The notes below the pieces were generated by a model. It saw only the letters and a list, made by a program, of their open reading frames with translations. It had not been told where the DNA came from and made no database searches. The position numbers and the translations under genes were made by a program. A stretch of DNA of 64,000 bases from Planctomycetaceae bacterium (lineage in GTDB: Bacteria; Planctomycetota; Planctomycetia; Pirellulales; Pirellulaceae). Shown here in pieces: positions 1-56,825 of this stretch. Numbering within the stretch: the stretch's first letter is position 1; every line of letters begins with the position of its first letter. The stretch is from NCBI GenBank assembly GCA_002862205.1, contig PKCN01000393.1, forward strand, positions 1 to 64,000, in the 5' to 3' direction.

Positions 1-122
1 CGTTTAAATCGGCAACGTTTAAATCGGCAACGTTTAAATCGGCAACGTTTAAATCGGCAACGTTTAAATCGGCAACGTTTAAATCGGCAACGTTTAAATC
101 GGCAACGTTTAAATCGGCAACG
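1..122. repeat. 15-bp tandem array, unit cgtttaaatcggcaa, 8 full copies, running off the left window edge
   Basis: Direct reading: eight perfect copies from 1 to 120, then 'cgtgcctg'. Confidence 0.98.
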
Positions 123-415
123 TGCCTGATGTTGAACGACAGAGCACCTATTGCCCGTCTGCCAAAAGGCTTTGGTGCATCGTGACTGGCATCAATTGAA
201 GAGGCACATCCCTGATGGAAACTGTTGCCATCGTTGTGCCTTTCACATTCCCGGTCGCTTTGAGCCTGAAGCAGGTTGGTGGGGTCAGCAAAGGCAACGC
301 GTCTCCATTGCCCCAAACCGTTCAAACCGCCAGTGCTGTTGAAACTGACAAAGCAGCCCGAACGAATTCAACCTGCTCGAGGGGGCCAACACATTCAGAA
401 TCGGAAACAACGCAA

Positions 416-2427
416 ATGAACCTGCAAACATCGACCCCACCTCTGACACAAGCTGAGCTGAAATCGATCCACCAAACGGCATGTCGTCTCGTCATAGCAG
501 CAGTCAGGAACGAGGTATTCGCCGCGCATACAGCACTTGGAAAAATCGCGAATTAGACGTCACAGGAACCTTTGTCACGCTAAAAATAGGCAATACCCTT
601 CGAGGTTTCTGTGGGATGCTGGGAGCCTCCATTTCTCTGGCCAAAGCGATTGCCGATTCTGCAACACAAACCGCGTTGAACAACCCGAGAATGGCTCCAG
701 TCACTTTCATCGAACTACCATAGCTCACACTCTCGACTTCCGTTCTTGACACTCCACTGTCGATTAATCTGATGAGTGAGGAGCAGATCAACTCCATCAA
801 AACTGGGCAGCGTGGGCTTCGTGTCCGCCAGAAAAATCATACGTGTCTTTGAGTGCCAATTGTGGCAAAAGAAGAGGGCTGGAATACTCGAAAATCTCTC
901 GTTGCAGTTTGCAACAAATCAGGACTTGCAGCAGCAATCTGAAAATGTGCGGATACTCTGGTCAAAAATTTTTATGAAATGGCTTATTCAGCCAGTTTCA
1001 TCTCCTTGAATAATGAACCGCAAGAGCCCGCACTGAGCCAGAAAAATCTACGGAAACTCACGCTCTGGATAGAATCAAATTTAGCCGCAATGCAACCCGG
1101 TGTTACTCAGTGTTGCTACGCAACCAAGGTGAACAGCGAGAGTTTTGCTGGTGTCGCCCTGCTGGTATCTGACGACTCGGATCAGGAATTTGGTTTGATG
1201 CAAACCGTTATCAGGAATGGAATGCCTCTCCAGCCCAGCGTATTCCTTTCAACCGAGGCAGAAGCAAAGCATTTCGAAGGCTTGAAAGAAGGTGGTAAAA
1301 AGTGAATCACCACAGCGATTCTCTCACACCTGATTCATCATGGCCTTGACGGTCACTTCGACACCAAAGAGGTGAGCCCTCAGGCCCGCGATATTCTCGC
1401 GACTGATGGCCAACGCTAGATCCCTTATCGATGATCCCGAAAAATGTGTAAACGAACTCGTACACGGGGCCCTCGGTGCTGAACGTTTTGGAAAAGGGTG
1501 CTTCATGATTTATTCAGCAAAATGTGACTCGAGCTTCACTCGCTTTTCGGTTTCTTCAGGTGCTCCATCCATTGCACCTGCCCCCGAACGCGGACGTGCA
1601 GTCGCTGGAATTTCCTACCCCAAGGGAGACTCAGATCGCGAATCTCTGATAGATGAAATCTTGGATCAACTTGCCACGAACCAGCATTCCCTTGCGCAAC
1701 GCCGACCGGTCAACTCAGCCATGGTCCCACATGCCGGAATTCGGCATTCCGGCCATATCATGGCCGATGTGTGGTCACGAATTGACCTACCCCGTGACAT
1801 TCTCATCCTGAGTCCAAAACACACTTCCGATGATGTCACTTGGACAGTCGCGCCGCACGAAAAGTGGGCATTGTCTGATTCCGAAAGCATCTCAGGGAAC
1901 TTGGAATTCGCAACCATGCTCGCTGAACATGTGCCAGGCTGAATATGTGCCAGGCATGGAACCGGACTCGGCCATACATCGCCCAGAACACGGAATCGAA
2001 GTTCAGTTGCCATTTCTGTATCGGTTTGCCCCCGATTCACGGATCACGGCCATCGCAATGGACGATGCAGCCCATTCAGATTTACACGAAGCAGCGCAAG
2101 CGTTGGCAGCCCTGATCAAGCGTCTTCCCAGACCACCACTGCTTGCAATCCGCAGTGCCATGAATCACTTCGCTCAAAATGGGAAAAAACCGTGGACGGG
2201 ACCAAATCGCGTAGGAAAGACTCACTGCGATGAATTCTCAAGGGCTTTTCGATACCTGCAAAAAAAAGAGCATCTGCATGTGTGGCCAAATTCCTGCCGC
2301 ACTTATTCTTCTAACCTTGCATTACATGCAGGCCACGGGCAATTACCGAAAAATCGCATATGCATCATCCGCGGAAGTCTCTGGTGACGTATCCAGAGTG
2401 GTTGGCTACGCCAGCGTACTTTTCTAG
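416..2427 (+). pseudogene. Degraded AMMECR1-MEMO fusion (AmmeMemoRadiSam system A/B type)
   Basis: AMMECR1-like pieces: LTQAELKSIHQTACRLVIAAV (frame 2), GTFVTLKIGNTLRGFCGMLG...NNPRMAPVTFIELP*LTLSTSVLDTPLSI...IKTGQRGLRVRQ...VAKEEGW (frame 1, in-frame stops at 721, 850, 940). MEMO-like pieces: MVPHAGIRHSGHIMADV...ILILSPKHT (frame 2), PEHGIEVQLPFLYRF...AMNHFA (frame 3), MCGQIPAALI...YASSAEVSGDVSRVVGYASVLF (frame 1). Confidence 0.9.
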
Positions 2428-2549: not shown

Positions 2550-3113
2550 ATGTCTGACAAGGTCCTCATCATCGTAGGCGATGCTACCGAAACTCTGGAC
2601 ACCATGTACCCGTATTATCGCTTACAGGAAGCAGGGTTTACCCCCGTCGTGGCAGCTCCCGAACAGCGTCTCTATCAAATGGTGATGCACGAGATCAAGC
2701 CGGGGTGGACCATTACGAAAGAGTGGGAAGGCTATACGATTCAGGCCGACATCGCCTTCGCGCAGATCAACCCCGAAGAGTACGTCGGCATCTTGTTCAG
2801 TGGCGGCAGGGCACCCGAATACATTCGCTACGACAAGGATCTGGTGCGAGTGACAAAGCATTTCTTTGAAACCAACAAGCCCGCGGCGAGCGTTTGCCAC
2901 GGAGTTGAGATTCCGGCTTATGCAGACTGTGTCCGCGGTCGTCGCATGGCCACCGTTCCAAAATGCAAATTCGATCTGGAAGTTTGCGGTGGCATTTTTG
3001 TCAATGAAGCCTGTGTCATTGATGGCAATCTGGTAAGCGGACGTACATTTCACGACAACGGGCACTATGTGGGACCATGGATCAAATTGCTTGAACAAGC
3101 AAGAGACGCCTAA
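2550..3113 (+). CDS. DJ-1/PfpI family protein
   Basis: KVLIIVGDATETLDTMYPYYRLQEAGFTPVVAAP ... ASVCHG nucleophile-elbow-like motif; alternative TTG start at 2547. Confidence 0.9.
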   Translation: MSDKVLIIVGDATETLDTMYPYYRLQEAGFTPVVAAPEQRLYQMVMHEIKPGWTITKEWEGYTIQADIAFAQINPEEYVGILFSGGRAPEYIRYDKDLVRVTKHFFETNKPAASVCHGVEIPAYADCVRGRRMATVPKCKFDLEVCGGIFVNEACVIDGNLVSGRTFHDNGHYVGPWIKLLEQARDA

Positions 3114-3323: not shown

Positions 3324-4334
3324 ATGTCATCCATTCTCCCGATCATCGATGCTGGGCTGCCCACGGGAGTCGTCGAGCCATTCGCATCACGTGTTGCTCG
3401 CGAGGCAGCCACACTGACTCGTAGTACGTTGATTGACCTGCAAATCAATCTTGGCAAACTTTGCAACCAGACCTGCACCCACTGCCATGTAGATGCAGGT
3501 CCAACAAAAACGGCCGAGAACATGACTCCGCAAACTGCAAAACGCATCTGCGAACTGGCAGACAGGTGCGAATCGCTCACAGCGGTCGACCTGACCGGTG
3601 GTGCTCCTGAGCTCAACTCAAGCTTTCGCAAACTTGTGCGTCACTTTCGCAACAGTGGCTTGAGGATCACTGACCGCTGCAACCTCACCATCCTCTCGGA
3701 ACCCGGACAGAAAGACTTGGGTGATTTCCTTGCCTCACACCAAGTCGAAATTGTCGCGTCATTACCATGCTACCTCGAAGACAATGTTGATGCACAACGT
3801 GGCTCGGGTGTATTCCAACGCAGCATCGAGGGGCTGCAACAACTCAATGCGTTGGGCTATGGTCAAAGTAACAGCGAGTTAAAACTGAATCTCGTTTTCA
3901 ATCCAACCGGACCAGCACTGCCACCAGACCAGACGGTTCTGGAAAGAGATTACAAGCGCGAACTGAAGAAACGCTACGATGTCGAATTCAATCGCTTGTT
4001 TGCGATTACCAATATTCCCATCAAACGATATGCAAAGTTCCTGAAGAAGCGGGGAGTACTGACAGATTACATGCAAATGCTCGAAGCAGCGTTCAATCCA
4101 CAGGCCGTACGTGGAGTGATGTGCAAAGAGATGCTCTCGATCGGGTGGGATGGACAGTTATTCGACTGTGATTTTAACCAGATGCTTGGGATGCCGGTTG
4201 CCGGAAGGTCATCGCAGACGGTATGGAACATTGACTCATTTGACCAATTCATTCACCAACGCGTTGCAGTCGCTGACCACTGTTACGGCTGTACTGCCGG
4301 CGCAGGCAGCAGTTGCGGTGGTGCTGTTACCTGA
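3324..4334 (+). CDS. arsS: Arsenosugar biosynthesis radical SAM protein ArsS-like
   Basis: Radical SAM motif CNQTCTHCHVDAGPT, VDLTGGAPELN, conserved C-terminus DHCYGCTAGAGSSCGGAV. Confidence 0.9.
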   Translation: MSSILPIIDAGLPTGVVEPFASRVAREAATLTRSTLIDLQINLGKLCNQTCTHCHVDAGPTKTAENMTPQTAKRICELADRCESLTAVDLTGGAPELNSSFRKLVRHFRNSGLRITDRCNLTILSEPGQKDLGDFLASHQVEIVASLPCYLEDNVDAQRGSGVFQRSIEGLQQLNALGYGQSNSELKLNLVFNPTGPALPPDQTVLERDYKRELKKRYDVEFNRLFAITNIPIKRYAKFLKKRGVLTDYMQMLEAAFNPQAVRGVMCKEMLSIGWDGQLFDCDFNQMLGMPVAGRSSQTVWNIDSFDQFIHQRVAVADHCYGCTAGAGSSCGGAVT

Positions 4335-4361
4335 ACTAGAACCCGAACGAAAAAGATAGAC

Positions 4362-5516
4362 ATGTCCAACACGCTCGACACTGAAAATGCTGTCCGCGAA
4401 CGATATTCAGCGGCAGCGCAGCAGCGGGAAGCTGAACTCTGTTGCCCGGTGGACTATGACGCGCAGTATTTGAAGATCATCCCACAGGAAGTCATCGACC
4501 GCGACTATGGCTGCGGAGATCCTTCGAAGTGGATTCAGCCGGGTGAAACGGTCCTTGATTTGGGAAGCGGAGGGGGAAAGATCTGCTTCATTGCGACACA
4601 GGTCGTGGGCCCAGAAGGAAAAGTGATTGGCGTGGACATGAATGACACCATGCTGCAACTCGCTCGGCAAAGTCAGACCGAAGTCGCTGCCAAGGTTGGT
4701 TACGACAACGTGCATTTTCACAAAGGAAAAATTCAGGACATGGCCATCGACCGCGACCGCATCGATGCCTATCTGGCAGAACACCCCGTCACCAACGAGT
4801 CTGGCCTGCAGGAACTCGAGTCGATGCTCCAAAGCATGCGGAAAGAAACCCCCATGATCGCCGACAATTCCATCGATGTCGTTGTAAGCAATTGTGTCTT
4901 GAATCTTGTTGATGCATCCGAAAAAGAACAGTTGTTTCAGGAAATATTCCGCGTCCTCAAGCCAGGCGGACGTGCGGTGATCAGTGATATCGTCAGCGAC
5001 GAGTCAGTGCCGCAACACCTTCAAAATGATCCCGAACTGTGGAGCGGATGCATCTCAGGAGCGTTTCAGGAAACCGAGTTCCTGAGAGCATTTGAGAGAG
5101 CAGGATTCTATGGATGCGAGATGCCGGTCCTGCAGGAGAAACCGTGGCAAACGGTCGAAGGAATCGAGTTCCGATCAGCTACCGTCATCACCTACAAAGG
5201 TAAAGAAGGCCCGTGCGATGACTACAACGAAGCAGTGATCTACCGTGGACCTTTCACAAAGGTGCATGACGACAGTGGAAATGTTTTCCGCCGCGGTGAG
5301 AGGACTGCGGTCTGCCGTAACACCTTCACTCTCATGACACGAGCTCCCTACGCCGAGAATTTCATCCCCGTCCCACCGCATCAAATCGTGCAGGACGCCC
5401 ATGCTAAACCGATGACCTGTGACGGGCATGAAAGATCACCCAAGGTCACCAAAGGCATGAGTTACGATCTTACAATCGTTGGCGATGACTGCTGCGGCAC
5501 AAGCGACTGCTGCTAA
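4362..5516 (+). CDS. SAM-dependent methyltransferase, arsenite methyltransferase (ArsM)-like
   Basis: ELCCPVDY, VLDLGSGGGKICFIA, VVSNCVLNLV, ISGAFQE; Cys-rich tail DDCCGTSDCC; directly downstream of arsS. Confidence 0.85.
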   Translation: MSNTLDTENAVRERYSAAAQQREAELCCPVDYDAQYLKIIPQEVIDRDYGCGDPSKWIQPGETVLDLGSGGGKICFIATQVVGPEGKVIGVDMNDTMLQLARQSQTEVAAKVGYDNVHFHKGKIQDMAIDRDRIDAYLAEHPVTNESGLQELESMLQSMRKETPMIADNSIDVVVSNCVLNLVDASEKEQLFQEIFRVLKPGGRAVISDIVSDESVPQHLQNDPELWSGCISGAFQETEFLRAFERAGFYGCEMPVLQEKPWQTVEGIEFRSATVITYKGKEGPCDDYNEAVIYRGPFTKVHDDSGNVFRRGERTAVCRNTFTLMTRAPYAENFIPVPPHQIVQDAHAKPMTCDGHERSPKVTKGMSYDLTIVGDDCCGTSDCC

Positions 5517-11500: not shown

Positions 11501-12275
11501 TGAGCAGGCAAAAGAGCTCTATGCTGATGCGAACGACTTACTCGACCAAATCATCGATAACAAAACACTACAGGCAAACACCGCGTATGGCTTCTGGCCA
11601 GCAGCAAGCGAGCAAGATGACATCATCCTGTTCACTGACAACTCCCGCACCAAAGAGCTGACCCGTTTTCACATGTTACGTCAGCAATGGGAGCGTCGGG
11701 GTCAAAAAGACTACCGCTCTCTTGCGGACTATATCGCTCCAACGGATAGTGGGCGAGAAGATTACATCGGAGGGTTTGTTGTCACCACAGGCGTGGGTGC
11801 AGATACTCTCGCGAATAAATTCAAAGCAGAATTGGACGACTACAAAGCGATCATGGTTCAGGCTGTCGCAGATCGTCTTGCAGAAGCCTTCGCTGAATTC
11901 ATGCACGAAAGAGCAAGAAAAGACTGGGGTTTCGGACAAGGAGAAGCCTTGGACAAGAAAGATCTGATCGCTGAAAAATACCGGGGCATTCGTCCTGCAG
12001 CAGGTTACCCAGCCTGTCCAGACCACACCGAAAAAAGAAATCTGTTTGAAATCCTGCAGGCCGAAGAGAACACATCGGTTGAACTCACTTCAAGCTTCGC
12101 AATGACTCCGGGTGCAAGTGTCAGTGGTCTTTACTTTGGTCACCCGGATGCACGCTACTTCGCCGTCGATCGAGTCACGCGAGACCAGATCGAATGCTAT
12201 GCGAAACGGAAAGGCATCCCGATCGAAGAAGCTGAACGATGGCTGAGTCCAAATCTTGCCTACGATCCGGACTGA
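8556..12275 (+). CDS. metH: Cobalamin-dependent methionine synthase
   Basis: 1239 aa; [24 protein letters not shown] zinc motif, B12-binding [12 protein letters not shown]-terminal activation domain. Start GTG 8556 or ATG 8574. Confidence 0.97.
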
Positions 12276-12310
12276 TCCGGACTGATCCGGACTGATCCGG
12301 GCTGATCCGG
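12264..12310. repeat. 10-bp tandem repeat (gatccggact/gatccgggct) overlapping the metH stop codon
   Basis: gatccggact x3, gatccgggct, gatccgg; the first unit encodes the last codons and part of the TGA of metH. Confidence 0.95.
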
Positions 12311-41721: not shown

Positions 41722-41765
41722 AGCGTTCACAGTTCAGTCGCTCACAGTGAAGTCGCTCACAGTTG
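41722..41765. repeat. Degenerate ~15-bp tandem repeat (agtcgctcacagtga)
   Basis: agcgttcacagttc / agtcgctcacagtga / agtcgctcacagttg. Confidence 0.75.
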
Positions 41766-51792: not shown

Positions 51793-51824
51793 CACTCACC
51801 CATCACTCACCCATCACTCACCCA
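51793..51824. repeat. 11-bp tandem repeat (cactcacccat), about 2.9 copies, just upstream of the FG-GAP/sialidase gene
   Basis: cactcacccat x2 plus cactcaccca; ends 12 bp before the ATG at 51837. Confidence 0.95.
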
Positions 51825-56641: not shown

Positions 56642-56742
56642 AATCGTATTCTCGTTTCCGTGCTGGTTTGCCTTGTACAAAGAGCCCTTTCTCAGCCACA
56701 CTTTAACGTGTCTGGCAACAAAATGCCGACCCTGCTCAATAA

Positions 56743-56825
56743 ATGGACTGGCAATCAATGGACTGGCAATCAATGGACTGGCAATCAATGGACTGGCAAT
56801 CAATGGACTGGCAATCAATGGACTG
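56743..56825. repeat. 15-bp tandem array (atggactggcaatca), 5 full copies plus 8 bp
   Basis: Perfect units at 56743, 56758, 56773, 56788, 56803; partial atggactg at 56818. Confidence 0.98.

Follow-up and report, generated by a model that had tools for sequence, protein, structure and literature searches.

The left end of contig PKCN01000393.1 of a Planctomycetaceae bacterium carries protein-coding sequence broken by stops and frame shifts, and the question is which gene this was, whether it is truly dead and, if so, how its decay compares with the fate of the same gene in related species. The window (the whole stretch of 64,000 nucleotides that was analysed; its genome is referred to below as G000 and its contig as C7) had been interpreted, in a preliminary description made from the sequence alone, as containing a whole and recent AMMECR1-MEMO fusion pseudogene at positions 416-2427.

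Identity and extent of the broken gene

The Pfam AMMECR1 profile matched positions 559-960 of C7 (E 9.7e-24, 85.9 bits vs. a cut-off of 25), with three stops (two TGA and one TAG) inside the match, and the Pfam Memo profile matched positions 1598-1867, 1956-2177 and 2191-2418 in differing frames (E 9e-8 to 3e-9, each above the cut-off). A purpose-written frame-tolerant dynamic-programming alignment, with intact relatives as references, was collinear throughout, the amino acid identity of the window stretch being 49.5% to the protein of G046 and 56% to that of G162. AMMECR1-like and then MEMO-like sequence, collinear over 416-2427 in several frames, had been proposed in the preliminary description, and both the Pfam matches and the frame-tolerant alignment to AmmeMemoRadiSam proteins, a check that it had itself suggested, bear this out over the whole of that stretch. 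The in-frame stops that it listed at 721 (TAG), 850 and 940 (both TGA) are read in the sequence exactly as claimed, and its frame changes were located near 554, 1418, 1922-1953 and 2182, where it had put them; the one that it gave as 1937-1953 results from a 16-bp tandem duplication. Its list of lesions was nevertheless incomplete, the stops at 1303 (TGA) and 2212 (TAG) and a frame change near 158 having been overlooked.

In intact relatives the gene has ca. 1056 codons, which specify radical SAM, AMMECR1, a middle region and MEMO, in this order, in one chain; all three domains are present in each of the ten intact fusions examined. Taken together, contigs C3 and C7 of G000 match the whole 1056-1058 amino acid proteins of G046 and G162 from end to end in the frame-tolerant alignment. 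The C-terminus of the TIGR04337 match lies at C7:151-309 and the remainder at C3:956-102 (minus strand), in four broken pieces; counted piecewise, as C3 frame neighbours plus the C-terminus on C7, the match amounts to 239 bits. The radical SAM part, mostly at C3:1-1015 (minus strand), is as broken as the rest. The dead copy keeps its CxxxCxxC motif; the conserved SDMNH motif has lost its Asp. Judged by these alignments, positions 1-2427 of the window almost certainly represent the 3′ two thirds of a dead single-chain radical SAM-AMMECR1-middle region-MEMO fusion, the 5′ third of which is on C3. A stand-alone two-domain AMMECR1-MEMO gene was also considered and rejected, since most family relatives are one frame of ca. 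1050-1110 amino acids.

The AMMECR1-MEMO assignment made earlier therefore stands, but the stretch was not the whole gene, since the radical SAM C-terminus (113-321) and the array at 1-123 had been missed. Neither does the gene start at 416, where the ATG is a methionine codon within an inter-domain linker. The radical SAM enzyme that had been suggested for a search was found, not as a separate partner but as part of the same broken gene, across the contig break. The features are collected in Table 1.

Table 1. Parts of the broken fusion gene and its neighbours (window coordinates unless a contig is given)
Feature	Position	Strand	Remark
15-bp tandem array, 8.2 copies, in-frame TAA per unit	1..123	+	inside pseudogene; also starts C3
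Radical SAM C-terminal remnant, aa ~302-370 of intact fusion, frame change near 158	113..321	+	
Radical SAM N-terminal part, aa 1-305	G000:C3:1015-105	minus	outside window
Decayed inter-domain linker, holds ATG at 416	322..469	+	
AMMECR1 domain remnant; frame change near 554; stops 721 TAG, 850 TGA, 940 TGA	470..1035	+	
Middle region, AMMECR1 to MEMO; stop 1303 TGA; frame change near 1418	1033..1561	+	
MEMO domain remnant to ancestral stop codon; frame change near 2182; stop 2212 TAG	1580..2427	+	
16-bp tandem duplication, shifts frame	1922..1955	+	
Intact DJ-1/PfpI-family neighbour, syntenic marker	2550..3113	+	
Intact radical SAM/DUF3641 (ArsS-like) neighbour	3324..4334	+	
Intact ArsM-like methyltransferase neighbour	4362..5516	+	

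The 15-bp array marks the assembly break between C3 and C7. Its unit is CGTTTAAATCGGCAA, and an identical 123 bp of it opens both contigs; a two-unit (30-base) probe matches only these two contig starts in the 7.77-Mb genome. The contig overlap sets a lower bound on the length of the array. C3 and C7 are unjoined in the assembly, their adjacency being based on the common array and on synteny: since the order in relatives is gcvT-fusion-pfpI, and C3 carries gcvT and the window pfpI, it follows that the window starts inside one gene of ca. 1056 codons. At the array site intact relatives encode Tyr-Val-Gly-Asn-Val; the window has TAA in place of the tyrosine codon, within the repeat unit. Since all array copies seen carry this TAA, the nonsense mutation most likely preceded the array expansion. 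Further tandem arrays with units of 10-15 bp are present in the window at 56737-56825, 41727-41764, 12264-12310 and 51793-51824.

In total, the G000 fusion carries about 11 frame-shifting indels and 8 in-frame stops, in addition to the expanded array. Profile searches for AMMECR1, Memo and TIGR04337 found no intact copy in the G000 genome (98.7% complete), in agreement with the earlier statement that the window holds no intact A/B protein; the lineage has lost the function, as had been suggested to be possible. The proposed link to the AmmeMemoRadiSam family likewise holds, as the radical SAM, A/AMMECR1 and B/MEMO components are all matched, piecewise. They do not amount to a translatable system, given the stops, the frame shifts and the near-neutral codon ratios described below. 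Combining inactivating lesions and lost protein-level constraint with the lack of an intact copy in the genome, the G000 fusion reads as a dead relic of the AmmeMemoRadiSam family and not as a working member.

Codon-position changes and the age of the decay

With G162 taken as the sister (a choice supported by the protein tree, whereas the DNA tree favours a pairing of G162 and the G154 group; G162 is a near intact reference either way) and G046 as the outgroup, the dead copy of G000 shows 152, 123 and 161 unique changes at codon positions 1, 2 and 3, i.e., a ratio (positions 1 and 2 averaged, divided by position 3) of 0.85. The corresponding changes are 55, 37 and 139 (ratio 0.33) for the intact copy on the G162 branch and 17, 8 and 100 (ratio 0.12) for gcvT, gcvH and pfpI together on the G000 branch. 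Calculated per segment of the G000 copy, the ratio is 0.74 for radical SAM, 0.92 for AMMECR1, 0.98 for the middle region and 0.86 for MEMO. Hardly any protein-level constraint is left in any domain of the G000 fusion.

These counts bear on whether an intact gene has been made to look broken by errors of sequencing or assembly, an explanation that draws on the draft state of the genome (451 contigs) and on the location of the gene at a contig end, next to an array that breaks the assembly. Errors would have to account for hundreds of substitutions at codon positions 1 and 2, and the third-position rate of the dead copy (0.154) agrees with that of the flanking genes (0.153), which rules out sequencing noise. 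Moreover, the neighbouring genes are open and long ORFs cover ca. 90% of the remaining window, so that the breakage is local, and independently broken remnants are found at the same place in sister species. We therefore give the error explanation practically no credence and treat the lesions as real.

The pseudogene had also been called recent, which is wrong. The branch that separates G000 from its nearest intact relative is deep, with 81% DNA identity between G000 and G162 in the flanking genes and differences at 52% of four-fold sites, and near-neutral decay takes up a large share of it.

The gcvT-pfpI locus across the genus

Among 22 genomes of the genus (of which G162 and G160 are incomplete, at 77% and 74%), the whole intact fusion was found in G046, G162, G158, G159 and G131, and in G160 it is present as two intact pieces, both at contig ends. 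Broken remnants were found in G000, G154, G152, G153 and G161, and the other genomes gave no match; a Memo family search agrees with this split. The arrangement of a divergent gcvT, the fusion and pfpI is unbroken in G046, G131, G159 and G162, and in G158 the order is kept, with ca. 1.5 kb extra before pfpI. The remnants of G154, G161, G152 and G153, which are shorter than that of G000, all lie at the gcvT-pfpI locus, and so do the short scraps of start and end that are left of the almost erased fusion of G092. The gcvT-pfpI gap measures 3403 bp in G046 and 3420 bp in G162, where the gene is intact, 1995 (G152), 1561 (G161), 1294 (G154) and 1169 bp (G153) where remnants are left, and 578 bp with the scraps of G092. 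Different species retain different pieces of the fusion. The G152 and G153 remnants have deletions of 159, 15 and 1292 bp in common, and a further 2-bp deletion is common to these two and G161.

In the clade of G163, G156, G155, G116 and G157, which also lacks the gene, frame-tolerant scores for a trace of the fusion were at or barely above those of shuffled DNA. The gcvT-pfpI gap of these genomes holds an unrelated opposite-strand frame of ca. 250 amino acids or more, and four of the five gap frames (L097, L099, L094, L093 and L092) have a V-L-I-D-D/K-x-F-x-R-x-E-like stretch, itself unrelated to the fusion. On the other side of pfpI, ArsS-like radical SAM/DUF3641 and ArsM-like genes follow in the window (3324-5516), G046, G152, G153, G154, G092 and G158; this pair was not found after pfpI in G131, G159, G160 and the G163 group. 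Between gcvT and the fusion start there is a short block close to CCCCAAGTCTATCGAAGGTGGTG (L040, about 1100-1070), which is conserved also where the fusion has been lost and is therefore probably concerned with gcvT expression.

A residual role of the decayed region, whether as a small RNA, in regulation or through a translated fragment, might be invoked to explain why remnants last across species, unlike most Salmonella pseudogenes (PMC2916853). This is very improbable: the window contains no Rfam family at the gathering score, every segment of the G000 copy is nearly unconstrained, the pieces retained differ between species, and the remnants diverge far faster than their flanks, being only 67% identical between G152 and G153 as against 89% for the flanking genes.

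G162, whose fusion is intact, is placed beside G000 in the protein tree and beside the G154 group in the DNA tree, and the topology that joins G000 to the G154 group with G162 outside was rejected (AU p = 0.007, 0.020 and 2e-6). Since this third topology is rejected and G092 lies outside both groups, the fusion would have been lost at least three times in the genus, unless the gene was regained; the count assumes no regain. On these trees the loss in G000 is independent of the others. G000 shares no in-frame stop with G154, G161 or G153, and codon 301 is TAA in G000 and TAG in G152. G000 and G154 have a single lesion in common, a deletion of 2 bp from a T-run. As a sign of shared inactivation it is weak, given the homopolymeric site and the contrary result of the tree test, and coincidence is the best reading.

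The same T-run deletion, together with the presumption of no regain in the loss count, could alternatively be taken to favour one ancestral inactivation behind all decayed copies, followed by re-acquisition of the intact G162 copy through recombination or transfer. We consider this unlikely, since it is opposed by the differing stops and the rejected topology, and since the G162 copy resides at the same gcvT-pfpI locus with constrained codon changes. Under the preferred reading of separate losses, selection on the whole fusion would have lapsed in the G000 lineage after the split from its nearest intact relative, and the gene would then have drifted, with point mutations and slippage during replication as the sources of change. 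The tyrosine codon would have changed to TAA, and the surrounding stretch would later have been amplified into the array that broke the assembly. The sister lineages, having lost the fusion separately, would display later stages of the same erosion.

Putative function of the fusion and significance of its loss

The intact fusion of G046 scores 571 bits with TIGR04337, 128.9 bits with TIGR04335 (cut-off 99) and 224.9 bits with TIGR04336 (cut-off 26). Like the AmmeMemoRadiSam system, the intact orthologue has all three components in order, each above its curated cut-off; unlike it, the components here form one polypeptide, which is dead in the window's genome. The single-chain form is common in Planctomycetota, and the fusion itself is not unusual. 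No function of bacterial AmmeMemoRadiSam is established in the open-access literature searched, and the name is absent from its titles and abstracts.

Structural relatives provide some guidance. For the MEMO part of the intact fusion, the nearest solved structure is that of human MEMO1 (PDB 3BCZ, 7KQ8; E 2e-5), which, in contrast, is a stand-alone eukaryotic protein. MEMO1 binds iron through H49, H81 and C244 (PMC11081632). These residues appear to correspond to H833, H863 and C1011 of the G046 fusion, the first two by the alignment offset and C1011 by motif similarity outside the aligned stretch. For the radical SAM domain, the nearest solved relative is the PFL-activating enzyme (PDB 3C8F; E 5e-6), which shares the CxxxCxxC type of motif.

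The likeness to glycyl-radical enzyme activases has a limit, as the fusion serves no canonical glycyl-radical enzyme here: PF01228 is absent from all 22 genomes of the genus, with the fusion present or not. A missing glycyl-radical partner was considered and rejected for this reason. A conserved neighbourhood was likewise discarded as a clue to function, since neither gcvT nor pfpI was found next to the fusion outside the genus (in mostly 3 kb of flank scanned). Given the fusion of the domains and the family resemblance, we predict that the intact protein most likely works as a radical SAM enzyme, with sequence kinship to glycyl-radical activases, whose target or partner is the metal-binding MEMO and AMMECR1 portion of the same chain.

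The C-terminus of the MEMO part contains an invariant R-V-V-G-Y-A-G in ten of ten intact fusions (L041:7742-8575; two alignments). The core of the glycyl-radical loop is R-V-x-G-Y-A. The likeness between the two, beside an activase-like radical SAM domain, may be a coincidence.

The decayed copies resemble the pseudogenes of Salmonella (PMC2916853) in their stops, frame shifts and deletions, judged against intact relatives at the same locus. In Salmonella, however, few pseudogenes are common even to close strains (Kuo and Ochman 2010, PMC2916853), whereas here remnants with identical deletion boundaries have survived in both G152 and G153, two species with the flank divergence given above. The genus is an unusual bacterial example of pseudogene remnants that species have in common, and these remnants have endured for an unusually long time.

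AmmeMemoRadiSam genes are relatives of human AMMECR1 and MEMO1, and a one-gene form of the system that has died independently in some species, and is intact at the same locus in others, constitutes a ready comparison set for finding its function. The graded series of remnants and the repeated loss are observed in the genus; a driver common to them is conjecture. We offer only tentatively, and with more doubt than belief, the possibility that the genus presents a graded fossil bed of at least three losses, with remnants that survived several speciations, the losses being driven by a shared ecological change that made AmmeMemoRadiSam activity useless. If this were true, the genus would supply matched intact and null species in which the function of the fusion could be found.
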